64,000 nt of DNA from Acidimicrobiia bacterium (GTDB taxonomy: Bacteria > Actinomycetota > Acidimicrobiia > Acidimicrobiales > Poriferisodalaceae): positions 62,001 through 126,000 of the forward strand of contig JAJEEO010000011.1 of the NCBI GenBank assembly GCA_022820925.1, written 5' to 3'. The notes beneath the pieces were generated by a model. It did no database searches. It saw nothing but the letters and a program-made list of their open reading frames with translations, and was not told where the DNA came from. Made by a program: the position numbers and the translations under genes. Within the stretch, counting starts at the first letter, position 1. Every line of letters starts with the position of its first letter. Positions 13,868 to 33,889 of this stretch are shown one piece after another.

Positions 13868-14833
13868 TCATCGGGTCCGTTCTCCGTAGTCGCCATGGGG
13901 AGCATCGCGCTCGGCGATCACTTGGCGGAATCCCTTCGTCTCGAAGTCTTCCACCCAGCGGTAGGCCTCTTCGGTGTGACGGGTCACACCGTCGAAGAAT
14001 GTGCCGAGCAGCTGGCTGGTGCGCAGGCCCATGTTCTCGTAGGCCTGGTTGACCAGCAGCTTGTTGAGCGCGAGCTGGTTGGCGGGGATGTGCGCGAGCC
14101 GCCGGGCGAATGCCTCGACGTGCCCGCCGAGTTCGTCGGGCGGGTATACGTAGGCGACCAAACCGATGCGGTGGGCGGTTTCGGCGTCGATGGCATCGCC
14201 CGACAGCAGGAACTGTTTCGCGTGCTCGAGGCCCAGCCGGTACACCCACATCATCGTGGTGGGCGTGCCGTAGATGCGCGACGGGGCGTAGCCGATGTGG
14301 GCGTCTTCGGCCATGAACAGGAGGTCGCAGCACAGGATCATGTCGGTGGCGCCGCCGATCGCCCAGCCGTGGATCTGGCCCAGCACCGGCTTGGGGCACT
14401 CCCAGATCTTCATGAACCGCTTCACGTTGTGGCCCATGAACTGCCAGTCGCGCACCGGGTCCCAGGCGCCTTCGCGCGGTTCGGGGCCGGGGGCGCTGTA
14501 GGGACTGCCCCACGAGTCGTACAGCTCGTCGTGCGCCCCGCCGCTCGAGGTCTGCCCCGACGCCGTCGGGGTGCCCCCGCCGGGATTCAGGTCGTAGCCG
14601 GCCGTGAGCGTGGGGCCGTTGCCGCGGATCACGATTGAGCGGACGTTGCGGGAGGCCGTCGCCCGGTCGACGCCGTCTGCCACCCCGGCGATGACGCTCT
14701 CGGTGAGGGTGTTCATGCGCTCCGGCCGATTCAGCGTTATGAACGCGACCGTGTCGACCTCGTCGTACAGCACCACCGGCTCGGGCTCGCCGGTTGTCCG
14801 AGTGCCCTCAGCCGATCCCACGTCGGAGTTCAT
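13868..14833 (-). CDS. Enoyl-CoA hydratase/isomerase (crotonase) family protein
   Basis: A 321-residue crotonase-fold protein, longer than the typical 260 because of an N-terminal extension and an insertion after the first oxyanion element. TLNRPERMNTLTESVIAGV is the family N-terminal signature; NGPTLTAGYDLN and HGWAIGGATDMILCCDLLFM are the two oxyanion-hole segments. The insertion (Gly/Thr/Ser-rich, residues about 85-125) separates them. A hydratase or isomerase acting on an enoyl-CoA is likely. It is 69 bases upstream of the hydrolase on the same strand, so the two may form an operon. Confidence 0.87.
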   Translation of the reverse strand: MNSDVGSAEGTRTTGEPEPVVLYDEVDTVAFITLNRPERMNTLTESVIAGVADGVDRATASRNVRSIVIRGNGPTLTAGYDLNPGGGTPTASGQTSSGGAHDELYDSWGSPYSAPGPEPREGAWDPVRDWQFMGHNVKRFMKIWECPKPVLGQIHGWAIGGATDMILCCDLLFMAEDAHIGYAPSRIYGTPTTMMWVYRLGLEHAKQFLLSGDAIDAETAHRIGLVAYVYPPDELGGHVEAFARRLAHIPANQLALNKLLVNQAYENMGLRTSQLLGTFFDGVTRHTEEAYRWVEDFETKGFRQVIAERDAPHGDYGERTR

Positions 14834-19279: not shown

Positions 19280-19324
19280 ATGAACGAGACGCATAGCGCG
19301 AAGGAGCGGACGTGGCTGAGTTGA
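19280..19324 (+). CDS. 14-codon upstream reading frame overlapping the csb1 start
   Basis: An ATG at 19280, with GGAG 9 bases upstream, opens a 14-codon frame (MNETHSAKERTWLS) that ends at TGA 19322-19324, ten bases beyond the GTG of csb1. The AAGGAG site used by csb1 (19301-19306) lies inside it. Ribosomes finishing the short frame would stop next to the csb1 start, so it could couple or tune translation of the effector operon. It may equally be fortuitous. Confidence 0.25.
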   Translation: MNETHSAKERTWLS

Positions 19325-20565
19325 CATACGAAACGTTGCGAGATGCCGTGTCGGGCGGGGCAGTGGCGCTGCGCTCGATCATGAGCTTGCAACCGGCGGA
19401 TGGCGAAGGAGGCAAGGTCTTCCCTCCGACTTACTTGGCCGGGCCCGGCGCAGCACACAAGTACGCAGTCGAGGAGCGGCAGGTGGGTGACCGGGTTGTT
19501 TCGACCGTGCTGCTGGACTCAGTGGCCTCGCAAGCGAATCGGGCCGAGTTCGCTCTGCTCGACGGATGGGAGGCTGGGGAGCTTCGATTCCCGGTTGCCT
19601 ACGTGGACTTCACCGGCGATGACGGTGTCGCTGACCTTGGTCGGCTCACGGTCTTGGAGGCCCCGCATCGCATTGCAGATGCGATCTTTCGGGACAGCCT
19701 GTTGGGCGGCACTCTGTTTCGACTCTCGGATGTGGGTCGGGCGATCACGGAAGCGCAGCCGAGGAATGCGACTGCGATGTTCAGGTACTCGCCGACGGCA
19801 TTGCTGTTCGGCCAATGGGATTCGACGGGACCCAAAGGTGGCTTGGGGGCGAAGTTCCAGCGGGCGTTTGTCTCCGAGATTGTGGGGCTCGATGCGAGGG
19901 TCGGCGCAAGCGTAAGCAGCCGTATCGACCCGCTCCAGATCGAGAAATTGCCGCCTGATCAGATCGCATACAACCACGGTGACCCCGAAGAGGTTTGGAC
20001 GTTTGATCCAGACGAAGCCGTTCCAGCTAAGAATGGCGAGCCTGAGGCTGCGACACGAGGTTCAGAGAGCGGAACTGCAGGTCAGCCCTCCAAGATCAAC
20101 CACGGCAATATCGCGCCGTCGATTGATGCGCTCGCTGGTGGCGTGACGATCTCGTCCGCTCGACAGACGACGGTCATTTCGTTCGCCGCGCTGCGTCGCC
20201 TCAGGTTCGCCGGTGCGAGCAGGGAGGCGGCCACGGCGGCTCGGACCGCGGTGGCCGCGCTAGGCGTTGCGGCGATCGCTTATGGCTATGAGATGGACCA
20301 TGACCTGCGGTCGCGTTGCCTGCTTGTGCCCGAGCACGCATTGTCTGCTGAGTTGGTGCTGCGCGATGGCTCCGAACCCGAATCCATCAGCATCGATCGT
20401 GGCTCAAGTGCCGCATTGGTCGAACGGGCGGCGCATGAAGCAGCTGCGGCCGGACTCGGCTGGACGACCGATGAGATGCGGTTGGTGCCGGCGCCGAAGC
20501 TCGTCGAGTTGCTTCGACGCAGCCGCGAGATGTCGGCACGCGAGGGTGTCACGGAGGCTGCGTGA
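19312..20565 (+). CDS. csb1: Type I-G (I-U) CRISPR effector subunit Csb1/Cas7
   Basis: A 417-residue RAMP protein of the GSU0053/Csb1 family, the Cas7 backbone that coats the crRNA in the type I-G Cascade complex. Typical family features are the opening YETLRDAVSGGAVALRS, LQPADGEGGKVFPPTY with PTYL, QANRAEFALLDG, the DAIFRDS...GTLFR region, LLFGQWDSTGPKGGLGAKF, and a C-terminal beta-alpha domain. The start is GTG 19312 with AAGGAG 5 bases upstream. It is the first gene of the operon; its stop overlaps the csb2 start by four bases (GTGA), indicating translational coupling. Function follows from the family and the full gene set. Confidence 0.92.
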   Translation: MAELTYETLRDAVSGGAVALRSIMSLQPADGEGGKVFPPTYLAGPGAAHKYAVEERQVGDRVVSTVLLDSVASQANRAEFALLDGWEAGELRFPVAYVDFTGDDGVADLGRLTVLEAPHRIADAIFRDSLLGGTLFRLSDVGRAITEAQPRNATAMFRYSPTALLFGQWDSTGPKGGLGAKFQRAFVSEIVGLDARVGASVSSRIDPLQIEKLPPDQIAYNHGDPEEVWTFDPDEAVPAKNGEPEAATRGSESGTAGQPSKINHGNIAPSIDALAGGVTISSARQTTVISFAALRRLRFAGASREAATAARTAVAALGVAAIAYGYEMDHDLRSRCLLVPEHALSAELVLRDGSEPESISIDRGSSAALVERAAHEAAAAGLGWTTDEMRLVPAPKLVELLRRSREMSAREGVTEAA

Positions 20566-22238
20566 CCGCCATCGAGGTCACACTCTTGACCGGTCGGTAC
20601 GTCGCTACGGCGCACCATGACCGCAGGAGTCACGAGTGGCCGCCGCATCCGGCTCGGTTGTTCTCGGCGCTCGTGGCGACGTGGGCCGATGACGAGGATG
20701 CGGACCCGGACGAGCGATCCGCAATTGAATGGTTGGAAGGCCAGAATGCACCGGCGATAACGGCGTCTCATCCGGATGGTGTCTCGGTGCGGCGCCCGGT
20801 GAGTCACTTCGTGCCTGTGAATGACGCGGCGGTGATATCTGGAGCGCAGTATCGAAACCGCGCCGGTCGGATCGCTGACTTGGAAGATGAACACCATCAG
20901 TTGTTCGACTCCCTTGGAGGCGAGGTAACACGGAAGGTTGAGCGGTTACGAGACAAGATCGACAAGGAGCGTGATGTGGCATTGCTTGTCGACTCGCTCG
21001 GCGCGACCAACCCGAAGGCCGCTGAGGCACTTCTTCCAGAAGGTCGCGGTAAGCAGGAACGACAGTTTCCGTCGGTCACTCCCGATTGTCCAGTGGTGAC
21101 GTTCGCTTGGGATCAAACCCCCGAACCCCACCTCACCGCGGCACTCGACGGGCTGCTGAGCAGGGTCACGCGTGTCGGTCACTCGTCGTCTTTGGTGTCG
21201 TGCCGGCTGGTTGAGTCGCCGCCGTCACCAACGATGGCTCCTGGGGATGGGTCGATGGTGCTGCGATGCACCCAGCGTGGTCAGCTCGCTGCGCTGGAGC
21301 AGGCGCACTCGCAGCACTTAGGCGTGCGCCCTCGGGCGTTGCCGTTCGTCGGTGTGCGCTATTCGCAGGTTCACAGTGAGGTGGAGGTGGGTTCGGTCGT
21401 ACGGCCGGACATCGCCGGCGACTTCGTTGTTTTCGAGATCCCTGCGGACAAGCGCCGTATGCCGATGACCCGCACCGTGGAACTGACTGAAGCCCTGCGT
21501 GGCGCTGTCTTCCACCATGCCGAGGATCCGTTGCCTGAAGGACTAAGCGGTCACCGGCCCAGCGGTTCGCCCAGCCGTGACCCCCATGTCGCGTTCGTTG
21601 CTCTTCCGAATGTGGGCCATACCCACGCGGATGGCCGTCTCATGGGTCTGGCGATCATGCTTCCCGATCAGCTTGACGAGCGTGCTTCTCGGGCTGCCTA
21701 TCGCGCCATCGGCATGTGGGAGCGGGCCGAGCCACGCGGCTTCTGCCGGTTGACGTTGGCTGGGGGAGATGTGCTTGACCTGCAGCGCAGGCAGTCCCCT
21801 TTCGAGTTCTTGAGCCTGCGGCACCGGACGTGGGCACAGCCATCGCGCTGCTGGGTGAGCACAGCACCGATCGCCTTGCCCAAGAGTCCCGGCCGGCTGA
21901 CGCGCGGATCGCCGAGCTCCAGAGCCAAGTCATGGGCCGCAGCAGAAGAGCAGGTGAGACAGTCGTGTGCCCATGTGGGGTTGCCCGAACCCGAGGTCGT
22001 CGCGATCTCGCTTGATCCGTTGATCGCTGGCGCGCGACCCGCTGGCGACTACCCCGCATTCGTGCAGGGAACCCGGCGCGGTGACGGCGTGCGTCGGCGC
22101 CTCGTACATGCCGCGGTGCTATTCGATCAGGAGATCCAGGGACCGTTCACCGTGGGCTCAGGCAGATTCCTCGGTCTCGGCTTGATGCGCCCGGTTCCTG
22201 ATTGGGACCCATCACCGGATGGCTCAGGCGACGAATAG
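20562..22238 (+). CDS. csb2: Type I-G CRISPR effector subunit Csb2 (Cas5-Cas6-like)
   Basis: A 558-residue protein of the GSU0054/Csb2 family, regarded as a fusion of a Cas5-like RAMP with a Cas6-like domain. It should process the repeat hairpin and hold the crRNA 5' handle. The opening TAIEVTLLTGRYVA followed by EWPPHPARLFSALVATWAD is the family hallmark; PVSHFVPVND comes next. A His-rich segment (SGHRPSGSPSRDPHVAFVAL) and a Gly-rich C-terminus (GPFTVGSGRFLGLGLMRPV) match the second RAMP domain, where a catalytic His would be expected. The GTG at 20562 overlaps the csb1 stop. The hairpin-forming repeats downstream are its likely substrate. Confidence 0.9.
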   Translation: MTAIEVTLLTGRYVATAHHDRRSHEWPPHPARLFSALVATWADDEDADPDERSAIEWLEGQNAPAITASHPDGVSVRRPVSHFVPVNDAAVISGAQYRNRAGRIADLEDEHHQLFDSLGGEVTRKVERLRDKIDKERDVALLVDSLGATNPKAAEALLPEGRGKQERQFPSVTPDCPVVTFAWDQTPEPHLTAALDGLLSRVTRVGHSSSLVSCRLVESPPSPTMAPGDGSMVLRCTQRGQLAALEQAHSQHLGVRPRALPFVGVRYSQVHSEVEVGSVVRPDIAGDFVVFEIPADKRRMPMTRTVELTEALRGAVFHHAEDPLPEGLSGHRPSGSPSRDPHVAFVALPNVGHTHADGRLMGLAIMLPDQLDERASRAAYRAIGMWERAEPRGFCRLTLAGGDVLDLQRRQSPFEFLSLRHRTWAQPSRCWVSTAPIALPKSPGRLTRGSPSSRAKSWAAAEEQVRQSCAHVGLPEPEVVAISLDPLIAGARPAGDYPAFVQGTRRGDGVRRRLVHAAVLFDQEIQGPFTVGSGRFLGLGLMRPVPDWDPSPDGSGDE

Positions 22239-22245
22239 GTTGCCG

Positions 22246-25200
22246 ATGAGCGCCGAGTCACTGTCTGCTGAGGACTTTGCCGCCTACTTCACGTCGGTGC
22301 ACGGCCACCAGCCCTACCCATGGCAGGAGCGTCTGACGGGCCAAGTGCTCGCCGAGGGGCAATGGCCAGATGTCATCGACCTGCCGACCGGCGCGGGCAA
22401 GACAGCAGTCCTCGACACCGCCGTGTTCACGCTCGCAGCACGACCAGATGTCTTTCCACGGCGTGTCGTCTTCGTGATCGACCGTCGCATCGTGGTCGAT
22501 CAGGTCTACGAGCGGGCCCGCAAGATCAGCGACTCGATCCGTGCTGCCGAGAACGGTGTGCTCAGCCGGATGCGCTCAGTACTCGGGGACTTCGCTGATG
22601 ACTTGACAGATCCGATCGGCGCATCCGCCCTGCGTGGCGGTGTCCCGATCGACGACGATTGGTCGCTTCGGCCCGATCAGCCGTGGGTGATGGTGTCCAC
22701 CGTGGACCAGTTCGGCTCCAAGCTGCTGTTCCGCGGCTATGGGGTCAGCCAAGGCATGTGGCCCATTCATGCTGGCCTCGCCGGCAACGACTGTCTGACC
22801 ATCCTCGACGAGGTGCATCTGAGCAGGCCCTTCGTCGACACGCTGCGGGATATTGGGATGGAGCCGACGGTCAACTCATTCAACGCAGAGCTGCTGCCGA
22901 GGCGCGGCTGCATCGTCGAGATGTCCGCCACGCCTCGCTGCGGGGACCGCCGCCGCTTCGCGTTGCAGCCGGCCGCTGACCTCGGTGGTCTCGGCAAACC
23001 GAGCAGACGGCTCCGCCAGATAGCTCGCGCAGCCAAGCGGGCAAGCCTGGTTCCCATCGCAGGGTCCGCAGCGCATGTGGCGTTGCCCAAGAAGATCACG
23101 ACGATTCTCCAGCAAGACCTCGAAGCCCACGAGCGAAGCATCGGTGTAGTCGTGAACCGGGTGCGAACGGCGCGGGAAGTCGATGGCGCATTGCGGCGCG
23201 CGGGTTTCACTTCACACTTGATCACGGGCCGCATGCGCCCGCTGGATCGAGCACGACGGCTTCGAGAGATAGACGTACTTGTCGATCCTGACGACCGAGA
23301 CTCCGATGCAGGTCGGACAGTCGTGGTCGCCACCCAGGCGATCGAGGTCGGTGCCGATTTCAGCTTTGACGCACTCATCGTCGAAGCGTGTCCGGTGGAC
23401 AGTTTGCGTCAGCGCGTCGGTCGCCTGGATCGGCGTGGCTCGCTCGCCGCGGACACGGGCAAGCCTGCGCGCTGCTGGGTCCTCGGGCTGCAATCGGATG
23501 TCGAAGGCAAGCGATCTGATCCGATCTATGGCGAAGCCGTCAAGGTCACGTGGCGGGAACTGGATGAGCGAGCCGTCGGTGGGCACATAGACATCGGATC
23601 TTCGAGCGAAGCGCTGGCTGGCATGCCATCTGACGCCAGTGCCCCGACTATGGAAGCACCCTTGCTGTTGCCGACCCACATTGAGGCGTGGTCACAAACC
23701 CGACCTGAGCCGCTTGTGCAGCCGGAAATCAGCGACTTTTTGCACGGTTTCGACGACAATCCGCCCGAGCCGGAGGTGTCCGTCGTGTGGCGCCGGGACC
23801 TGCGACGCGACGCCCTGCTGGCTGTCCGTCCGCGGCAGGCGGAGTACTTGACGGTGCCGATATCCGCCGCTCGCGCATGGCTGCAGCGCAACGACGAGAC
23901 GCCGATGGCTGATGTGGCCACACCCGCCCCCGATGGCATACCGGGACACGCAAGCGGCGACGGGGCTGCAACAGCTGGCCAACGCCGAATTTGCCGGTAC
24001 CTCGGCGGCGATGCAGTCATCGAAGAGGTCGACATCGACGAGCTTAAGCCGGGCGATGTCATCGTCGTCGACCCGTCACGAGGTGGGTTGTCGGGCGGAA
24101 CCTGGGATCCGCACGGTGTCGTTGCAGCAGAGTCGAGTTCGCCTGACAGCGGAGAAGCGGCAACGGTGCAAGAGGCCGTTGCTGATCTCGGTGACGAGGC
24201 TCAGTGGGCCTACGGGAAGCGCTGCACGATCCGCCTCGACGGTCAGCTCCAGGAGTGGATTGCAACGTGGCTCGGCGACGAGGCGCCCCGACTGCCCAGA
24301 CCGCATGGCGATCAAATCGCCGACAGCGATGACCCCAGCGGGGACGCTCGCACGCCCGACGAGAAGATCGATGAGTGGATCGAGGCGTTGCTCGATCATG
24401 ATCGCGAAGCAGTGCCGACGCAGTTGCGTTGGCTGTTCGAGAGCCCGGCTTCTGACCGGAACAACGGTGCTGGCGCGCTGGATCGCCTCAGGGATCCCTC
24501 TCGACGTACATGGAGCTTGGTCTCAGACTCGGACAACGACGTCAAGCCGATCGGCCGTAGTTCTGGGGACGGTGACTACTACGTCCTCCTGCAGAGGTCG
24601 CCCGACATCTCGGCGTCCCGCGAAGACGACGATGCGTCGTTGACCGGCACCGGCATTCCCCTCCGTCGCCACCTTGAAGGGGTCGGCGCACGGGCCGAGA
24701 GATTCGCCAAGAACCTCGGCCTGGGTGCCGAGCTAGTTGCCGACCTGCGGCTCGCTGGCGAGCTGCATGACCTTGGCAAAGTGGACCGCAGATTTCAGGC
24801 GCAGATGGTCGGGCATGACCGAGTCCAGCTGGAACTGCTGGACGAGCCGCTCGCCAAGTCGCTTCAGGGCGCTCGTACTCGTCGTCACTCATGGCCGCCC
24901 GTGCGACACGAGATCGCCAGCGTTGCGATGGCGCAGTCCTCCACGGCGCTGATGGAGCGAGCCCACGATGCAGACCTCGTGCTGCACCTAGTAGCGACGC
25001 ACCACGGTCACAGTCGCCCGCTGCCATCGATAGTTTCCGACGATTGTCCCCAGGACTTGACTTATCAACACGACGGCCATGCGCTGCGTGCCCGATCCGA
25101 GTTCAGCGAATCGACTCTCGCCCTCGAGATGGCCGATCGCTTCTGGCGGTTGAGCACCAAGTACGGGCACCACGGCCTCGCGTGGCTCGAAGCAATCCTC

Positions 25201-25272
25201 CGTCTCGCCGATCACCGCCAGAGCGAAGCCGAAGCACAGGGGCCTGCTGACCCTGATCGGGAGGTTCGCTGA
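22246..25272 (+). CDS. cas3: Type I-G Cas3 helicase-nuclease with C-terminal HD domain
   Basis: About 1008 residues. The superfamily 2 helicase comes first: Walker A DLPTGAGKTAV near residue 45, the DExH box ILDEVHLSRPF near residue 190, SATPR, and motif VI VDSLRQRVGRLDRRG near residue 395. The HD nuclease is C-terminal, with ELHDLGKVDRRFQAQM near residue 840, RHEIASVAM and LHLVATHHGHSRP. This helicase-first order is characteristic of type I-U/I-G Cas3. The protein unwinds and degrades DNA licensed by the Cas7-Cas5-Cas8 complex. ATG 22246, 7 bases after the csb2 stop, gives the usual short N-terminus (SAEDFAAYFTSVHG); ATG 22219 would overlap csb2 by 20 bases. Its stop overlaps the next start as TGATG. 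Confidence 0.92.
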   Translation: MSAESLSAEDFAAYFTSVHGHQPYPWQERLTGQVLAEGQWPDVIDLPTGAGKTAVLDTAVFTLAARPDVFPRRVVFVIDRRIVVDQVYERARKISDSIRAAENGVLSRMRSVLGDFADDLTDPIGASALRGGVPIDDDWSLRPDQPWVMVSTVDQFGSKLLFRGYGVSQGMWPIHAGLAGNDCLTILDEVHLSRPFVDTLRDIGMEPTVNSFNAELLPRRGCIVEMSATPRCGDRRRFALQPAADLGGLGKPSRRLRQIARAAKRASLVPIAGSAAHVALPKKITTILQQDLEAHERSIGVVVNRVRTAREVDGALRRAGFTSHLITGRMRPLDRARRLREIDVLVDPDDRDSDAGRTVVVATQAIEVGADFSFDALIVEACPVDSLRQRVGRLDRRGSLAADTGKPARCWVLGLQSDVEGKRSDPIYGEAVKVTWRELDERAVGGHIDIGSSSEALAGMPSDASAPTMEAPLLLPTHIEAWSQTRPEPLVQPEISDFLHGFDDNPPEPEVSVVWRRDLRRDALLAVRPRQAEYLTVPISAARAWLQRNDETPMADVATPAPDGIPGHASGDGAATAGQRRICRYLGGDAVIEEVDIDELKPGDVIVVDPSRGGLSGGTWDPHGVVAAESSSPDSGEAATVQEAVADLGDEAQWAYGKRCTIRLDGQLQEWIATWLGDEAPRLPRPHGDQIADSDDPSGDARTPDEKIDEWIEALLDHDREAVPTQLRWLFESPASDRNNGAGALDRLRDPSRRTWSLVSDSDNDVKPIGRSSGDGDYYVLLQRSPDISASREDDDASLTGTGIPLRRHLEGVGARAERFAKNLGLGAELVADLRLAGELHDLGKVDRRFQAQMVGHDRVQLELLDEPLAKSLQGARTRRHSWPPVRHEIASVAMAQSSTALMERAHDADLVLHLVATHHGHSRPLPSIVSDDCPQDLTYQHDGHALRARSEFSESTLALEMADRFWRLSTKYGHHGLAWLEAILRLADHRQSEAEAQGPADPDREVR

Positions 25273-26204
25273 TGCCGGAACTTGAGCTCCCTGGGCTGTC
25301 GGGCGACAGCCCGCTCGGTTTTCTGGCGGGACTCGGAGTGCAGGTCGCACTCGCCGAGACCGGCTGTGAACTGCATCTCGGGTGGGCCGACTCGCTCACT
25401 CCGGTGGCGATTGTCGACTCCGTCTTCGACTTGGAAGAAATCGTTTCGCGTGTCGATTCGGTGGCGAAGGGCTGGTCCGAAGGAGCAGCGCTGAATCCAA
25501 TTCCGTCTCGCGGCGACGTCAAGTTTCCTGCAAGCGCGATCCGGGACTACCTAGCCGAATCGCGCATGTCGAGGAACGGGGTTCTGGCGGCGTCACTCGT
25601 CGCGGAGAACAGTCTCGATGCGATGTCTCGAACGAAGGCGAAGCCGACAGATCTTGACTTCACGTCCGGGAACCAGAAGCTCCTCGACATGATGAGGAGA
25701 ATCCTCTCTGAGACAGGTCCAGAGGACATTGCGCAGACCCTGTCGGGGGCGTGGCGATACGACGAGCGACTCCCGTCGCTTGGCTGGGATGTCATCGATG
25801 ACCGCCAATATGCGCTTGAAGCGTTCGATCCGACTGATACCGCGAGGAATCCGAAGCTCTCGTGCGCGGGTGCCCACTGCCTCGCCATTTTGGGCATGTT
25901 CCATTTCCCGGTGTTCCGCGGTTACCGGAAGACGGCGACCACGGCGTGTCACGGGACGTGGAACCAAGGATGCTTCTCATGGCCACTATGGGAGCGCCCC
26001 GCGCCGAGTCGAGTGTCCAGGACGTACATAGCGCATGCATCGATCCCGCCGTCCGATGCGGTCAGCGTTGATTCAGCTCCATACGTCGCACGGACACGTC
26101 AATTCGCTGGCTGGGGGATTACCCGGATCCTGACGTCGAGTATCGACCGGGCCAGCAAGTATGGGCGCTTCGGGCCGCCAAGGGTGATCTGGCGACGTGC
26201 CTAA
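25272..26204 (+). CDS. Short type I-G Cas8-like subunit (Cas8u2/Csb3-like)
   Basis: A 310-residue protein in the position of the type I-G large/auxiliary subunit. It begins LPGLSGDSPLGFLAGLGVQ and ends FAGWGITRILTSSI followed by SKYGRFGPPRVIW, both resembling termini of Csx17/Csb3-type proteins; the middle has LPSLGWDVIDDRQYALEAFD and a Cys/Trp-rich stretch (HGTWNQGCFSWPLW). At about 310 residues it fits the small Cas8u2 rather than the roughly 700-residue Csx17 form. It probably helps recognise the PAM or target strand in the Cascade complex. The start ATG overlaps the cas3 stop, and its stop overlaps the cas4-cas1 start by eight bases. Subfamily naming is from memory of the type I-U gene set, so treat it as probable. 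Confidence 0.75.
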   Translation: MPELELPGLSGDSPLGFLAGLGVQVALAETGCELHLGWADSLTPVAIVDSVFDLEEIVSRVDSVAKGWSEGAALNPIPSRGDVKFPASAIRDYLAESRMSRNGVLAASLVAENSLDAMSRTKAKPTDLDFTSGNQKLLDMMRRILSETGPEDIAQTLSGAWRYDERLPSLGWDVIDDRQYALEAFDPTDTARNPKLSCAGAHCLAILGMFHFPVFRGYRKTATTACHGTWNQGCFSWPLWERPAPSRVSRTYIAHASIPPSDAVSVDSAPYVARTRQFAGWGITRILTSSIDRASKYGRFGPPRVIWRRA

Positions 26205-27837
26205 CGTACCTGAGCTTGTGCCGGCCCGGATGGTCAACGAGTTCGTGTACTGCCCGCGGCTGTTCTATCTCGAATGGGTGCAGGCCAGATTCGAGGACAA
26301 CGCCGACACGGTGCACGGTCGCTATGTGCATCGCAACGTGGACAAGGGCGGCGGTCGGATGGGCGAGTCGTCGGAGGACGATCCGGTTCGCGACGCCCGC
26401 TCTGTGCTCGTGAGCTCGGAGCGTCTGGGTCTTATTGCGAAGACGGACATCGTCGAGGGATCCGACGGCGAGGTGGTGCCTGTGGAGGTCAAGCGGGGCC
26501 GGCCGCCGAAGCACGGTCCCGCATGGGAACCTGAGCTGGTGCAGTTGGCCGCAATCGGGCTGATCTTGCGCGACAACGGCTACGACTGCGAGAACGGCCA
26601 GTTCTATTTCGCCTCGTCGCGAGAACGCACGACCGTCGAGTTCGATAGCCGCTTGGTTGACCGGACGCTCGACACCGTCGATCGGCTGCGCCAGGTCGCC
26701 GCTGCCGATGATCCGCCGCCGCCGCTGGTGGACAGCCCGAAGTGCCCGCGCTGTTCGCTGGTGGGCATCTGCCTTCCCGACGAGACCAATTTCCACACCG
26801 GGCGAGTCGAGGGGACGCCTCGACGCCTGACGCCTCGCGATTCGGCTGCGCGGCCGCTGTATGTCGGCCAGCAAGGCGCTCGCCTCGGCATCAGTCAGCG
26901 TCGGGTCGAAGTGAAGGTCAATCGCGAGGTGGTCAGCAGCGAGCGCCTGATCGATGTCTCGCAGATCAATCTCACAGGCAACGTTCAGGTATCCACTCAG
27001 CTGCTGAATGCAGCGTTCCGGGAGGACATCCCGGTGTGCTGGTTCAGCTACGGCGGATGGTTCCAAGGGATGGCCCACGGCCTGCCGTCCAAGCATGTGG
27101 AGCTGCGGCGGCGCCAGGTCGCGGTGGCGGCTCAGGCTGGCCTGCCGTTGGCGCGGCAGATGATCGTGGGCAAGATCCGCAACTCCCGAACCCTGTTGAT
27201 GCGCAACTCTCGTGAACCGGTGGATGCGGCCGTCGGGCAGCTGAAGGAGCTCGCTGGCAAGGCTGCCGAGGCTGACTCGGTGGAGTCGCTGCTCGGACTC
27301 GAAGGCGCTGCGGCGCGATCGTACTTCGGCAGCTTCGCGTCGATGCTGAAGGACGACCGTCTCGGCACTTTCGACTTCAACGGCCGCAACCGGCGACCGC
27401 CTCGCGACCCCGTCAATTGCCTGCTGTCGTTCCTGTACGCGCTGTTGGTCAAGGACCTCACGGCGGTGGCGTTCTCGATCGGCTTCGATCCTTACCTGGG
27501 CGTGTATCACCGACCGAGATTCGGGCGGCCCGCGCTCGCACTCGATCTCGCCGAGGAGTTCCGGCCCATCATCGCCGAGTCAGTCGTTGTGAACGCCGTG
27601 AACAACGGCGAAGTGGCCGAGAACGGCTTTGTCGTCCGGGCCGGGGGAGTAGCACTCGAGCAGCCGGCGCGCCGAGCAGTCATCGCCGCCTACGAGCGGC
27701 GCCTCGACCACGAGGTCACCCACCCGACGTACGGCTACAAGATCACCTACCGTCGCGTTCTCGAGGTCCAGGCACGGATGCTCGCGGCAAGCATGCTCGG
27801 CGAGATCCCCGAGTACGTTCCCTTCATGACCAGGTAG
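26197..27837 (+). CDS. cas4-cas1: Cas4-Cas1 fusion, CRISPR adaptation integrase with PAM-processing nuclease
   Basis: A 546-residue fusion typical of type I-U/I-G. Residues 1-205 are Cas4, a RecB-like nuclease: the first cluster Cys is in EFVYCPRLFYLEW, the metal-binding residues lie in VVPVEVKRG, and the last three Cys are in CPRCSLVGIC, so the iron-sulfur cluster looks complete. Residues about 215-546 are Cas1 (RPLYVGQQGARLGISQRR, then VSTQLLNAAFREDIPVCWFS, and DPVNCLLSFLYALL with the active-site region YLGVYHRPRFGRPALALDLAEEF). Cas4 trims prespacers at the PAM, and Cas1 joins them to the leader-proximal repeat. The GTG start at 26197 lies inside the end of the cas8-like gene. Confidence 0.93.
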   Translation: MPNVPELVPARMVNEFVYCPRLFYLEWVQARFEDNADTVHGRYVHRNVDKGGGRMGESSEDDPVRDARSVLVSSERLGLIAKTDIVEGSDGEVVPVEVKRGRPPKHGPAWEPELVQLAAIGLILRDNGYDCENGQFYFASSRERTTVEFDSRLVDRTLDTVDRLRQVAAADDPPPPLVDSPKCPRCSLVGICLPDETNFHTGRVEGTPRRLTPRDSAARPLYVGQQGARLGISQRRVEVKVNREVVSSERLIDVSQINLTGNVQVSTQLLNAAFREDIPVCWFSYGGWFQGMAHGLPSKHVELRRRQVAVAAQAGLPLARQMIVGKIRNSRTLLMRNSREPVDAAVGQLKELAGKAAEADSVESLLGLEGAAARSYFGSFASMLKDDRLGTFDFNGRNRRPPRDPVNCLLSFLYALLVKDLTAVAFSIGFDPYLGVYHRPRFGRPALALDLAEEFRPIIAESVVVNAVNNGEVAENGFVVRAGGVALEQPARRAVIAAYERRLDHEVTHPTYGYKITYRRVLEVQARMLAASMLGEIPEYVPFMTR

Positions 27838-27841
27838 AGCC

Positions 27842-28138
27842 ATGAGTGATCGACGCCGATACTTGGTCTCATACGACATCCGAGATCCGAAGCGGCTGCG
27901 CAAAGTCCACAAGGCCATGAAGGCGTACGGTTGGCCCATGCATTACAGCGTGTTCATCAGCGATCTTGACAATATTGAACTGATCGACCTCAAGTTCGAA
28001 CTTGGAGAAGTGATCCACCATGGAGAAGACACAGTTGCATTCGTCGACCTAGGAATGCCAACAGAGCGCGGCCGAGAGTGCTTTGATTTTCTCGGAATAG
28101 CGCCACCACTGCCACAATCCGGGCCGGTTATCGTCTGA
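27842..28138 (+). CDS. cas2: Cas2, CRISPR adaptation scaffold
   Basis: A 98-residue ferredoxin-fold protein: RRYLVSYDIRDPKRLRKVHK with the conserved Asp after the first strand, then GWPMHYSVFISDL, matching the Cas2 beta-alpha-beta pattern. It forms the dimer bridging two Cas1 dimers during spacer insertion. It starts four bases after the cas4-cas1 stop, with AGGTAGAG upstream, and is the last gene of the operon. Its base composition is slightly less GC-rich than that of its neighbours, and the leader and array follow directly. Confidence 0.95.
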   Translation: MSDRRRYLVSYDIRDPKRLRKVHKAMKAYGWPMHYSVFISDLDNIELIDLKFELGEVIHHGEDTVAFVDLGMPTERGRECFDFLGIAPPLPQSGPVIV

Positions 28139-28308
28139 TGCGAGCGGTCCAGTCAGGCTCCGATGCCCGGGCAGCGCTCGCAACCCTGAAGTACGGGCCT
28201 GATATGCACCTTGACAACAGAATCCAATGCTTCCCGAGCACTCCTACACAGGGAGCGCTCGCAACTGCTCTCAAAGCCGCTGGTCAGAGCCGGTAGATTT
28301 CGAGAGCG
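28139..28308 (+). promoter_or_regulatory. CRISPR leader region
   Basis: The 170 bases between cas2 and the first repeat are non-coding and lie at the conserved end of the array, which fits the leader carrying the array promoter and Cas1-Cas2 docking sites. A 12-base direct repeat, AGCGCTCGCAAC, occurs at 28173-28184 and 28254-28265. The last 20 bases before the first repeat, GTAGATTTCGAGAGCG, have no obvious symmetry. Confidence 0.7.
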
Positions 28309-28782
28309 GTTTGGCCGGAGATATCTCCGGCCCTTCATTGAAGCGAGTGCTTGCACGGCTGCACGTCGCGGCTGGTGTGACGGTTTGGCCGGAGATATCT
28401 CCGGCCCTTCATTGAAGCCAGTTCCTTGCCACGAAGAAGGGCGAGCAGATCACCCAGTTTGGTCGGAAATGTCTCCGGCCCTTCATTGAAGCCCGTAGGC
28501 GCGTAGTCGTCCCACTCGGTTGGGAACCGTTTGGCCAGGGATGTCTCCGGCCCTTCATTGAAGCGCGGCCCAGTCGAACGCCCAGGCTGCGACGCGCAGC
28601 ACATTTGGCCGATCTATCGATCGGCCCTTCATTGAAGCTCGACGTGGTTGCCGACAATCCGGTTGTAATGCACCGAACTCGGCTGGCCAATTGGCTAGCC
28701 CTTCATTGAAGTGATTGTGCCGTGAACTCGCGGATTACCGATTTGGTGTTGGCCGATTGATTGATCGGCCCCTCTTTGGAGT
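28309..28782 (+). CRISPR. Type I-G CRISPR array: seven 36-base repeats, six spacers, repeats diverging distally
   Basis: Repeats lie at 28309-28344, 28383-28418, 28457-28492, 28529-28564, 28603-28638, 28677-28712 and 28747-28782; spacers are 38, 38, 36, 38, 38 and 34 bases. The consensus is GTTT, then a 20-base palindrome with arms GGCCGGAG and CTCCGGCC, then CTTCATTGAAGC. Repeats 1-2 are identical. Repeats 3-4 differ at 3-4 stem or loop positions. Repeats 5-7 have new stems (GGCCGATC/GATCGGCC, GGCTGGCC/GGCTAGCC, GGCCGATT/GATCGGCC) that still pair, while the CTTCATTGAAG tail stays constant through repeat 6. The leader end adjoins cas2, so transcription is plus-strand and the crRNA 5' handle should be ATTGAAGC. 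Confidence 0.95.
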
Positions 28783-29996: not shown

Positions 29997-30090
29997 CGGC
30001 TCGCACCCAGTCCGGCGCTGGAGATAGCCGACCGGGGTGACGGCAGCGAGACCGCCGCCACCCCAGCCGGTCTGGTCGGCGTGCGAGCGG

Positions 30091-31215
30091 CTACTCGCCG
30101 CCCTCGAGCAGCACGACGGGGATCCGCTCCCAGTCGTCGCCCACGACATCGATGCCCGCGTCCCGCAGATTCGCGACCGCCGCCTCGGCGATGTCGGTGC
30201 GGTACGCACCATCGTCAGGCTCCGCAGCCAGGATGCCCTCGCTGGTGGCCACGTCAACCGTCTGTGCCCACAGGTCGGGATCCATGATGCCCGCACCCAG
30301 CGGAGACGGCCAGATCAGCGCGCTGATCTCGTTCATCTGCCACGTCTGGTGCGACTGGCCCAGCGTCGGGACGTTGTCGAGCACGATCTGCACGCACTCC
30401 TCGGTGTTGTCCCGGCAGTGGATCCAGCCGCGCAGCGACGCCTCCACGAACCGGACCGCCGCGTCGTAGTACGCAGGATCGTCATCGAGGCGGTCGGCAT
30501 CAGCCCACAGGGCGTCCTGGAGCATCGCCGTGCCCTCGTCGTTCCAGTCGATGATGTTGAGATCGGACGGCTGGTAGAGCTCGCCGGTCGCCGGGTTGAT
30601 CGTCTCGAGCACTTGCGCGTACTCGTTGTAGATCATCGCCTGCGCCGCATCGATCTCGCCGGAGATCAACGCCAGCATGTCGAAGTTCTGCTGCACCAGC
30701 TGGATGTCGGAATCCGGGTCCAACCCGCTGCGGCGCAGCCCGGCCAGCAGCTCGAACTCGTTGCCGAATCCCCAGTTGCCCACGGTGCGGCCTTCGAGGT
30801 CGGACACCGAGTTGATGCCGGAGTCCACGAAGGACACCTGCAAGGTGGCGCTCCGCTGGAACACCTGGGCAATGTTGGTGATGTTGGCACCTTCCTCGCG
30901 TGGCACCAAGCCCCTCGGCACCCACGAGACAGCGAATTCCGCAGCACCCGAATCCAGCACCGAGGCCGGCACGATGTCGACACCGCCCTCGAGGATGGTC
31001 ACGTCGAGTCCGACGTCTTCGTAGAAGCCGAGTGCCTGCGCCGCGTAGTAGCCGGCGAACTGTGCTTGGGTGAACCACTGCAGCTGCAGCGACACCTCCG
31101 AGATGGGCTCGAATTCGGGCTCATCCGCGTCGTCGCCGCCGGTGCAGGCCGCGGCTAGCAGGCCGAGCGCCAGCAGCGGCGTCAACAGCCGCAATGTCAA
31201 TTTCCTGGTCCCCAT
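30091..31215 (-). CDS. ABC transporter substrate-binding lipoprotein, NMT1/THI5-like
   Basis: A 374-residue lipoprotein: a basic n-region, a hydrophobic stretch and the lipobox LLAAAC, with the Cys at about residue 24. The mature part starts with an acidic linker and the family signature LQLQWFTQAQFAGYYAAQALGFYEDVGLDV, shared by ThiY/RibY-type binders of pyrimidine or flavin-like heterocycles. ATG 31215 has GGGAGG 6 bases upstream; the longer frame has no ribosome site. It is the last gene of a minus-strand set whose other members are two permeases, an ATPase and pyrimidine/hydantoin-degrading enzymes, so a pyrimidine base, hydantoin or N-carbamoyl compound is the likely ligand (inference). 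Confidence 0.87.
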   Translation of the reverse strand: MGTRKLTLRLLTPLLALGLLAAACTGGDDADEPEFEPISEVSLQLQWFTQAQFAGYYAAQALGFYEDVGLDVTILEGGVDIVPASVLDSGAAEFAVSWVPRGLVPREEGANITNIAQVFQRSATLQVSFVDSGINSVSDLEGRTVGNWGFGNEFELLAGLRRSGLDPDSDIQLVQQNFDMLALISGEIDAAQAMIYNEYAQVLETINPATGELYQPSDLNIIDWNDEGTAMLQDALWADADRLDDDPAYYDAAVRFVEASLRGWIHCRDNTEECVQIVLDNVPTLGQSHQTWQMNEISALIWPSPLGAGIMDPDLWAQTVDVATSEGILAAEPDDGAYRTDIAEAAVANLRDAGIDVVGDDWERIPVVLLEGGE

Positions 31216-31269
31216 GTCAACCCTCCCCAGGTTGGTTTCTCCTATAGGACCCCACGACCCCAACAGACG

Positions 31270-32052
31270 TCATTGCGCCCTCCGTGCTGCGAAGTACCAC
31301 GGCATGACGAGCCGTTCGAGCACGACAGCGATCGCGTAGAGGCCGATGCCCACCAGCGATCCGGCCAGAACAGCGGCCCACGCGTCGTCGTAACGCGTCA
31401 GGCCGGCTGAGTTGGTGATGATGTTGCCGAGAGCGTCCTGCCGCCCGCCGAAGTACTCGGCCACGATGGCGGCGATCACCGCCAGCGACGTTGCGAGCTT
31501 CAGCGCGGTGAAGAAGTACGGCATCGCATTGGGGATTCGCACCTCGCGCATGATCCGCCACTTGCCCGCGCCGTAGGACTCCATCAGCTCGATCTGGCTC
31601 GGTTCGATGTGCCCGAGCCCCCGGGTGGTATTGATGAACACCGGGAAGAAGACCAGCACCACCACGACTGCCTGGTTGGAGCGGGGCGACAGGATCCCGA
31701 ACCAGGCGTTGAAGATTGGCGCCAGGGCGATGATCGGCACGGCATTGACCGCGACCGCCAGCGGCGTGAGCGTCTCGTGTGCCGATCGGAACGCGGTCAC
31801 GAGCACGGCCGCCAGTGCACCCACCACCACGCCGGCGATCAGGCCGGTGACGATGATGAACCCGGTGATGCCGGTCGCGGTCGAGATCGCGTCGAAGTCG
31901 CCGAACAGGGCGCTGACGATGGTTGAGGGAGGCGGCAGCACGAAGCCGTCGGGGTTCAGCACGGCCAGCAGGGCTTCCCAGCAGCCGAACATGATCGCCG
32001 CCGCCACCACAGGAGGCAGCCACGCCCGCAGCACAGCCTTCGCGGCGGTCAC
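31270..32052 (-). CDS. ABC transporter permease (second)
   Basis: A 260-residue inner-membrane protein of the SsuC/TauC/ThiX permease type with about six helices and the EAA loop ELMESYGAGKWRIMREVRIPNAMPYFFTALK near residue 165, which docks the ATPase. Its start overlaps the ATPase stop by four bases, and it sits 54 bases upstream of the binding-protein gene. With the permease at 32882 it should form a heterodimeric channel, since the two sequences share the fold but are clearly different. Confidence 0.9.
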   Translation of the reverse strand: MTAAKAVLRAWLPPVVAAAIMFGCWEALLAVLNPDGFVLPPPSTIVSALFGDFDAISTATGITGFIIVTGLIAGVVVGALAAVLVTAFRSAHETLTPLAVAVNAVPIIALAPIFNAWFGILSPRSNQAVVVVLVFFPVFINTTRGLGHIEPSQIELMESYGAGKWRIMREVRIPNAMPYFFTALKLATSLAVIAAIVAEYFGGRQDALGNIITNSAGLTRYDDAWAAVLAGSLVGIGLYAIAVVLERLVMPWYFAARRAQ

Positions 32053-32885
32053 GAGGCGTGGTCCCCTCGCAGCGCGTTGCGCACTGCGGTCACGTTGGCG
32101 AAGTACTCCGGATGGTCGCGGGTCGCCTCGCTGCGCTCACCCAGGTCGGTGTCGATGACGGCCGAGATCCTGCCCGGTCGGGGCGACATCACCACTACCC
32201 GCGTCGACAGAAACACGGCCTCGCTGATGGAGTGGGTCACGAAGATCACCGTGGTCTGGGTCTCGTTCCAGATCCGCAGCAGCTCGTTCTGCATGTGCTC
32301 GCGGGTCATCTCGTCGAGCGCGCCGAACGGCTCGTCCATCAGCAGCAGCTTCGGGTCGAACGACATCGCCCGGGCAATGGCGACCCGCTGCTGCATGCCG
32401 CCCGACAGCTCCGCAGGATGGTGCCGGGCGAACTCGCTCAGCTTCACCAGTTCGAGCATCTCGGCGGACCGTTGCCGTCGGTCGGCCGCATTCCAGCCCA
32501 TCAGCTCGAGGGGCAGCTCGATGTTGCGCGACACGTTGCGCCAGTCGAACAGGCCCGCCCGCTGGAACACCATCGAGTAGTCGCGGTCGAGCCGTGCCCG
32601 GTCCGCAGGCTTGCCGTTGACGGTGACGGACCCCTCGCTCACGTCGGTCAGCGCGGCGATCAGCCGCAGCAAGGTGCTCTTGCCGCAGCCCGAGGGACCG
32701 ATCAGCGTGACGAACTCGCCGGCTGCGATCCGCAGGTCGATCCCGGTCAGCGCGTGGACCTCGTTGGAACGTCCTGGATTGAACACCTTGTCCACGCCCG
32801 CCACCTCGACGGCGGCCACGACGGCCTCGCAGTCACGATCGCCATCTGGGGGTTCAGGACCGTTTGTCGGGAAGCCGTTGCTCAT
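32049..32885 (-). CDS. ABC transporter ATP-binding protein
   Basis: A 278-residue SsuB/TauB/ThiZ-type ATPase. Walker A is LIGPSGCGKSTLLRLI near residue 62, the Q-loop is SMVFQRAGLFDW, the signature is LSGGMQQRVAIARAM near residue 158, Walker B is LLLMDEPFGALDE, and the H-loop is VTHSISEAVFL. ATG 32885 overlaps the preceding permease stop as ATGA; a far longer in-frame reading exists upstream but would run through that permease in a wrong frame. It energises import by the flanking permeases and the NMT1-like lipoprotein. Confidence 0.93.
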   Translation of the reverse strand: MSNGFPTNGPEPPDGDRDCEAVVAAVEVAGVDKVFNPGRSNEVHALTGIDLRIAAGEFVTLIGPSGCGKSTLLRLIAALTDVSEGSVTVNGKPADRARLDRDYSMVFQRAGLFDWRNVSRNIELPLELMGWNAADRRQRSAEMLELVKLSEFARHHPAELSGGMQQRVAIARAMSFDPKLLLMDEPFGALDEMTREHMQNELLRIWNETQTTVIFVTHSISEAVFLSTRVVVMSPRPGRISAVIDTDLGERSEATRDHPEYFANVTAVRNALRGDHAS

Positions 32886-33889
32886 GTCCCGTACTGCCCT
32901 TGTTCTGGCTCCCGTCCCTTGCGTCCGACCAGCACATACTCGACCGTCGAGATCACCAGGAAGACGAAGATCCCCAATGCGGCCGCCCCGAGCACGGCGA
33001 CATAGAGGCGCTCGGGTCCCGTCGTGTAGCGCTGGGCTTCGAGCAGCACCCGGCGACCGAGGCCGCCTTTGACGCCGGCGGAGATCTCGCCGACGATGGC
33101 GCCCACCACGCTGGCGGTCGCCGCGATCTTGAACGCAGCGAACAGGTATGGCAGCGATGCCGGCAGGCGCAGGCGCCACAGCGTCTGGCCCCATCGTGCG
33201 GCGTAGGAGTCCATCAGCTCGAGGTTCTCGGGGCGGGGCGACTGCAGGCCCCGCAGGCCGTTGATCGTCACGGGGAAGAAGGTCAGGTACGTCGCGATGA
33301 TGGACACCGACATCCAGTCCTGCCATTCGAACGGCAGAAAGTCGAAGCTCTTGCGTCCCCAGATCACGATAATAGGCGCTATCGCGATCAGCGGGATGGT
33401 TTGGCTGGCGATGACGTGGGGCACCAGCGCACGCTCCAGGCGCCCCGAGGTGGTCAGTGCGATGGCGATGCCCAGCCCGACGACGACGCCGATGGCGAAC
33501 CCGACCGCCGCTTCTCGCAGCGTGAACGCTGCTTCGGAGGCGACGATCGACCAGAAGGCCTCGCCCGAGCCTCGCGGCTCCTCGAAGATCCCCGCCAGGA
33601 TGTCGCCCACGGGCGGCATCTTGAGGTCGGTGGTCTCGGGCAGGAACGACCCGATCACAGGCCAGCCGGACTGAGCATCGTCGATGGCGGCCCCCACTGC
33701 TTTGTATCCGGTGTACGCCAGGCTCAGCAGGCACACGAACACGACCAGAACGACGACCTGGCGAGCGATGCGGAGCGTGCGAGCGCGGCGGCGCTCACGG
33801 GCCGCCTGCAGGCGGATCATCTGGTCGCGGACGACGGGGTCGTCTTCGGCCAACGCGCTGGCGGCCCCCGAGGCGGTGTCAGCCGGCAC
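32882..33889 (-). CDS. ABC transporter permease (first)
   Basis: A 335-residue permease, longer than its partner because of a cytoplasmic N-terminal segment rich in Arg before the first helix and a periplasmic stretch near residues 80-120. The EAA docking loop reads ELMDSYAARWGQTLWRLRLPASLPYLFAAFK. It begins ten bases after the LLM oxidoreductase stop on the same strand and overlaps the ATPase start by four bases, so the transporter is evidently co-expressed with the catabolic enzymes upstream. Confidence 0.9.
   Translation of the reverse strand: MPADTASGAASALAEDDPVVRDQMIRLQAARERRRARTLRIARQVVVLVVFVCLLSLAYTGYKAVGAAIDDAQSGWPVIGSFLPETTDLKMPPVGDILAGIFEEPRGSGEAFWSIVASEAAFTLREAAVGFAIGVVVGLGIAIALTTSGRLERALVPHVIASQTIPLIAIAPIIVIWGRKSFDFLPFEWQDWMSVSIIATYLTFFPVTINGLRGLQSPRPENLELMDSYAARWGQTLWRLRLPASLPYLFAAFKIAATASVVGAIVGEISAGVKGGLGRRVLLEAQRYTTGPERLYVAVLGAAALGIFVFLVISTVEYVLVGRKGREPEQGQYGT

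Follow-up and report, generated by a model that had tools for sequence, protein, structure and literature searches.

The CRISPR array at positions 28309-28782 of the analysed 64,000-nt stretch of DNA (the window) is very probably an ordinary type I-G array in which successive versions of the mother repeat are preserved, repeats 5 and 7 being fossils of an older stem, designated C. In the initial annotation the same array was described as one in which the stem sequence changes by paired substitutions while the hairpin is maintained. The pattern is real and is mostly explained by inheritance, which leaves an unusually readable history together with an unexplained palindrome signal at the DNA level.

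The array is preceded, on the + strand, by an operon composed of csb1, csb2, cas3, a gene encoding an NF049934 "Cas3-extension" protein, a cas4-cas1 fusion and a gene occupying the position of cas2 (Table 1). The features placing the locus in type I-G (formerly I-U) are (i) a full-length match of Csb2 to TIGR02165, (ii) Csb1/Cas7g and Cas3g proteins matching TIGR02570 and TIGR02621 above the cut-off, (iii) the Cas4-Cas1 fusion recognized by NF049935, and (iv) regular 36-nt hairpin repeats located directly after cas2 and the leader. A further feature expected of type I-G would be processing of crRNA by Csb2 to give an 8-nt 5' handle. The product of the cas2-position gene shares 95-97% identity (tblastn) with those of five congeners (loci L009-L013). 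Known type I-G systems, e.g. that of Thioalkalivibrio sulfidiphilus (PMC9638904) and Methanosarcina barkeri Cas4/1 (PMC10504553), have in common with this locus csb1, csb2, cas3g, the cas4-cas1 fusion and a 36-nt repeat consisting of a long hairpin and a tail. Unlike in these systems, no csx17/cas8g was recognized in the operon of the window, which contains the NF049934 gene, adjacent to cas3, instead. No match to TIGR04113 (Csx17/Cas8g) was obtained in the window genome, and control genomes likewise gave none. The window genome encodes a single Cas1, and the repeat tail occurs in register at one place only, i.e., in this array. A search of the leader for a promoter-like site gave none.

Table 1. 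Features of the type I-G locus, with positions in the window. B and C denote stem types.
Feature	Position	Strand	Description
csb1 / cas7g	19312..20565	+	TIGR02570 (E 5e-20); PF09617 (E 9e-50)
csb2 (cas5-cas6 fusion)	20562..22238	+	predicted crRNA processing; TIGR02165, full length (E 4e-81)
cas3g	22219..25272	+	TIGR02621 (E 3e-208)
type I-G "Cas3-extension family" protein gene	25272..26204	+	NF049934 (E 1e-72)
cas4-cas1 fusion	26197..27837	+	NF049935 (E 6e-230, 764 bits)
cas2 (98 aa)	27842..28139	+	inferred from position and size; homologues in the same place in L009-L013
leader (169 bp)	28140..28308	+	88-92% identical to the leaders of L009-L013
repeat 1	28309..28344	+	GTTT GGCCGGAG ATAT CTCCGGCC CTTCATTGAAGC; stem type B, perfect 20-bp palindrome
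spacer-bearing stretch	28345..28746	+	six spacers of 38, 38, 36, 38, 38 and 34 nt
repeat 2	28383..28418	+	same sequence as repeat 1
repeat 3	28457..28492	+	B with changes in the 5' arm (one G.U, one A.C), loop ATGT
repeat 4	28529..28564	+	B with changes in the 5' arm (one A.C, one G.U), loop ATGT
repeat 5	28603..28638	+	stem type C, GGCCGATC/GATCGGCC, loop TATC; identical stem in congeners G159 and G303
repeat 6	28677..28712	+	stem GGCTGGCC/GGCTAGCC, loop AATT; versus C, three compensated pairs and one G.U
repeat 7 (terminal)	28747..28782	+	type C stem with one G.U, loop GATT, decayed tail

The array contains seven 36-nt repeats. For repeats 1-2, 5, 6 and 7 the arms given in the annotation were confirmed, with 8 of 8 pairs kept, and the proposed folding check, once performed, returned 8 bp and a 4-nt loop for each of them (-17.6 kcal/mol for repeats 1 and 2; -15.6, -16.6 and -14.5 kcal/mol for repeats 5, 6 and 7, respectively). 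When the same number of changes per arm is placed at random, the probability that all eight pairs are kept by chance is 0.003 for repeat 5, 0.002 for repeat 6 and 0.003 for repeat 7, the last of which has its third pair changed on both sides relative to repeats 1-2 (G-C to U.G). Retention of all eight pairs despite the altered stem thus holds for these three repeats, but not for repeats 3 and 4, which the annotation had omitted. Their arms (GGTCGGAA/CTCCGGCC and GGCCAGGG/CTCCGGCC, respectively) each contain one A.C mismatch and one G.U, the changes are confined to the 5' arm and the loop, and the fold is clearly weakened (-12.0 and -10.5 kcal/mol), that of repeat 4 being no better than the folds of shuffled sequences (z = -0.6). 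The tail CTTCATTGAAG is intact from repeat 1 through repeat 6, as had been reported, and in repeat 7 four changes fall within the last 12 nt.

Comparative analysis of the six spacers revealed none shared with the fetched related loci, and only short matches of chance length within the window. Searches of IMG/VR with exact stretches taken from spacers 1, 5 and 6 found nothing, and a scan of that collection with a loose repeat pattern yielded single, scattered matches only.

Three main versions of the stem were distinguished in the genus: A (GGCGGGGA-ATAT-TCCCCGCC), B (GGCCGGAG-ATAT-CTCCGGCC) and C (GGCCGATC-AATT-GATCGGCC). The five congeners L009-L013, whose Cas4-Cas1 proteins are 95-97% identical to that of the window, carry homogeneous arrays with the A stem. 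Among 397 genomes of the order, the 3' half of repeat 5 (GATCGGCCCTTCATTGAAG) was found, besides the window, in 53 places in congener G159 and in one place in congener G303, all other matches being scattered and mismatched. In G159 the repeat GTTTGGCCGATCAATTGATCGGCCCTTCATTGAAGC forms a 53-repeat array built on C. The end of this array lies approximately 110 bp from DNA sharing 89% identity with positions 30027-33827 of the window, which places both arrays at the same genomic site; the G159 assembly comes without the cas genes and leader, and the tie consists of downstream synteny and repeat sequence only. A distal stem of the window array therefore matches the repeat that a related genome uses at the corresponding site. 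G303 independently shows the same order of layers, in which a repeat of type A precedes an exact C repeat, itself followed by a decayed, C-like one (GGCCGATT).

The annotation had taken the stem of repeats 1-2 as the reference, which is the wrong ancestor. Compared with the G159 repeat, repeat 5 has an unchanged stem and differs by two loop bases and the first base, while repeat 7 departs from C by one stem change (producing a G.U) plus changes in the loop and tail. Since repeats 5 and 7 share one stem, the compensation events counted from repeats 1-2 number two, not three. Misassembly of the distal repeats, named at the outset as a possible refutation, is unlikely, because the stem of repeat 5 recurs in the two congeners at the places described above.

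In CRISPR arrays the leader end is the newest, and new repeats are copied there. Each new spacer would copy the mother (leader-proximal) repeat, so that a change in its stem would reach later repeats only and older versions would stay at the far end. According to this scenario, C would be the older stem of the genus, still working in G159 and surviving as repeats 5 and 7 of the window and inside the G303 array. The mother repeat would later have been replaced by B in the window lineage and by A in the five congeners. A and B share pair 6 (G-C) and the loop ATAT, both differing from C, which fits the origin of both after C through a step that they have in common. Copies of B (repeats 3 and 4) would have decayed through single unpaired changes, and the old C stems would have been kept, with drift affecting only the loops, the first bases and the tail of the terminal repeat. 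The scenario is built on the repeat sequences and shared stems, on synteny of the neighbouring DNA, on the two mixed arrays and on the absence of a link between stem and Csb2. The second option offered in the annotation, acquisition onto different repeat variants, comes close to the layering seen with G159 and G303. Against the scenario, a single C-to-B series does not account for every distal repeat, as it does not yield repeat 6, and no intermediate step between C and B is recorded. A tree based on the DNA from cas4-cas1 to the leader gave no resolution within the genus.

Among the loci compared, the stem sequence does not track Csb2. A stem tied to the Csb2 allele was suggested by the comparison of the window with L010, L012 and L013 (Csb2 74-76% identical, stems different), and was dropped because L009 and L011, whose Csb2 proteins are only 31-32% identical to that of the window, share the same A stem. 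As the stem is independent of Csb2, a change of Csb2 did not drive the change of the stem. Two Csb2 proteins approximately 31% identical to each other serve identical repeats, which is compatible with the annotated view that Csb2 may read mainly the shape and the 3' tail; such reading cannot, however, account for loops that stay palindromic (see below). Within the genus, the effector genes are far more variable than the adaptation genes and the leader.

Two effector sets occur in this genus, csb1-csb2-cas3-NF049934 or cas3-csx17-csb1-csb2, in combination with the same adaptation genes, leader and repeat. The csb2 gene of L011 is part of a cas3-csx17-csb1-csb2 set, and both kinds of Csb2 are present in the L011 genome (G398). 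The NF049934 gene of the window is 97% identical to that of L013 (7070-8000) and only 42-45% identical to those of L010 and L012; the neighbouring genes do not follow this split, which indicates that recombination had a breakpoint between cas3 and cas4-cas1.

When CRISPR repeats covary, this is commonly read as evidence of selection for the RNA hairpin. We compared ten mother repeats (nine consensus sequences, taken from this clade and the relatives nearest to it, and that of L018, a locus from another genus). All 10 positions of the 20-bp palindrome pair in each of them; the 21 changes observed are all two-sided, G.U is absent, and both loop positions covary as well (A-T, T-A, C-G, G-C). Selection for the RNA hairpin does not predict the latter, since the bases of a 4-nt loop cannot pair in RNA. 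Covariation in related arrays, the test proposed in the annotation, thus extends from the stem to loop positions that RNA pairing leaves unpredicted. In the GGCC group, 72 of 72 stem pairs are of the Watson-Crick type. A palindromic centre is present in 17 of 62 distinct type I-G cores, versus 3.8 expected from shuffled loops, although the 62 cores are mutually related and the excess does not represent 17 independent events. Repeats that are no longer the template (repeats 3, 4, 5 and 7 of the window and the last repeat of G159) have lost the loop symmetry. These sequences point to a constraint at the DNA level or to palindrome-templated mutation, between which the data do not choose.

A constraint of this kind would exist if the Cas4-Cas1/Cas2 integrase needed symmetric repeat DNA, in which case selection at integration, acting on repeat 1 only, would keep the 20-bp palindrome together with its loop. 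We regard this as a tentative possibility: it agrees with the palindromic and covarying loops and with the strong conservation of adaptation genes and leader beside varying effectors, and an effect of inverted repeats on second-site integration is known from a type II-A system (PMC6895254), but asymmetric loops occur in many type I-G repeats served by an integrase of this kind.

Templated mutation would operate through template switching at the DNA level during duplication of the leader-proximal repeat: single strands would fold back, gap filling would switch template, and arm and loop would be copied across, making and keeping palindromes without selection on RNA. Template-switch mutations that change both arms of an RNA hairpin in one event, and are reported to make and keep hairpins, were described for rRNA and not for CRISPR repeats (PMC8794818), and their involvement here is a proposal only, concerning the change of the mother repeat and not the layering. 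This mechanism seems unlikely. It would explain the fully palindromic mother repeats lacking one-sided changes, the excess of palindromic centres and the loss of loop symmetry in non-template repeats; on the other hand, palindromic loops are absent from the GGGGGG clade and from most other type I-G repeats, no intermediate has been seen, and the 62 cores share ancestry. Rather unlikely, too, is the proposal that the leader-proximal repeat changes as a DNA palindrome, loop included, because its duplication at spacer integration copies arm onto arm. If true, templated mutation would be the means by which CRISPR stems turn over, and compensation seen between CRISPR repeats would alone be no proof of selection on RNA structure.

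Repeat 6 is flanked by two repeats of type C, and its own stem is neither C nor B. Its changes relative to C are all transitions, the C loop is kept, and it is the only distal repeat with paired changes relative to the true ancestor C, such changes being absent from repeats 5 and 7. A search for its stem in 395 genomes of the class gave scattered matches only, none of them with the array tail. Repeat 6 is either a product of in-place compensation, the sole real case in the array, or a remnant of another stem lineage; we infer that it belongs to a further lineage, recombined in or changed on its own. Recombination of the whole distal block from a foreign array, as opposed to its inheritance, would accommodate this repeat, which a single lineage leaves unexplained, and effector modules in the genus do recombine. 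Such an origin is nevertheless improbable, given that the C stem is native to the genus and the locus, leader and tail are continuous, and no spacer is common to any fetched array.

The annotation had interpreted the array as evidence of continued selection for the hairpin, and a weaker form of that claim stands. In three C-derived distal repeats (repeats 5 and 7 and the last repeat of G159) changes affect 1 of 48 stem sites, compared with 6 of 12 in the loop, 4 of 12 in the first four bases and 7 of 36 in the tail (stem versus loop, Fisher P = 0.0001), and distal C-type stems look conserved relative to loops in this small sample of repeats with a possibly partly shared history. A continuing requirement of Csb2 for these stems may be the reason for their retention; binding of Csb2 to the 3' hairpin is tight, and cleavage occurs 4 nt beyond the hairpin base (PMC9638904). 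That compensatory changes arose in place in each distal repeat, under selection for a hairpin read by Csb2, is very improbable: the 8 of 8 pairs kept in repeats 5-7, the contrast between stems and loops, the transitions of repeat 6 (a type of path via G.U) and the tight binding by Csb2 argue for it, but the stems of repeats 5 and 7 are inherited from C, repeats 3 and 4 of the same array have broken pairs, and distal repeats 39, 41 and 42 of L131 have lost pairing, the very outcome that the annotation had named as refuting its claim.

The terminal repeat of L018 (56 of 56; 14098-14133) has four compensated pairs relative to its array consensus and none broken. Among approximately 80 arrays surveyed, it was the sole other one whose terminal repeat has several compensated pairs, so fully compensated distal candidates recur, yet are uncommon. 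It is a candidate for a second fossil repeat, in another genus; a search for a relative with the same stem, in genomes that evidently excluded L018's own, gave no match. Repeat regions were also contrasted over the terminal repeats of 28 arrays; two misregistered repeats confounded this comparison, which does not count among the main evidence.

Paired changes that preserve the hairpin are known between related CRISPR systems (CRISPRmap, PMC3783184). In contrast to those cases, several stem versions are present here in one array, a congener reveals the ancestral version, and covariation extends to the loop. The locus also resembles CreTA and other ectopic degenerate repeats in having diverged repeats beside a CRISPR locus, for which resistance to loss by recombination has been put forward (PMC9458426); in CreTA, however, one or two ectopic repeats lie outside the array, next to a toxin gene, while the diverged repeats of the window are in register inside it. 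Inherited layering accounts for most of the within-array covariation, and part of what remains falls at loop positions, beyond the reach of RNA pairing. With one genus, three main stem versions and one locus, this is a small system for separating repeat turnover, Csb2 specificity and palindrome-templated mutation.

Several further observations were made in related loci. L018 and L009-L013 have the same 20-bp core, GGCGGGGAATATTCCCCGCC, with differing tails and first bases and Cas1 proteins only 72% identical. Two congeners (G303, at C15, and G384, at C176) carry a second, distant type I-G-like locus (Csb2 approximately 32% and Cas1 approximately 34% identical). In the last repeats of the type I-G arrays L046, L080, L074 and L013 the hairpin is kept and the tail is lost, as expected if the last crRNA needs only the 5' part of the repeat.
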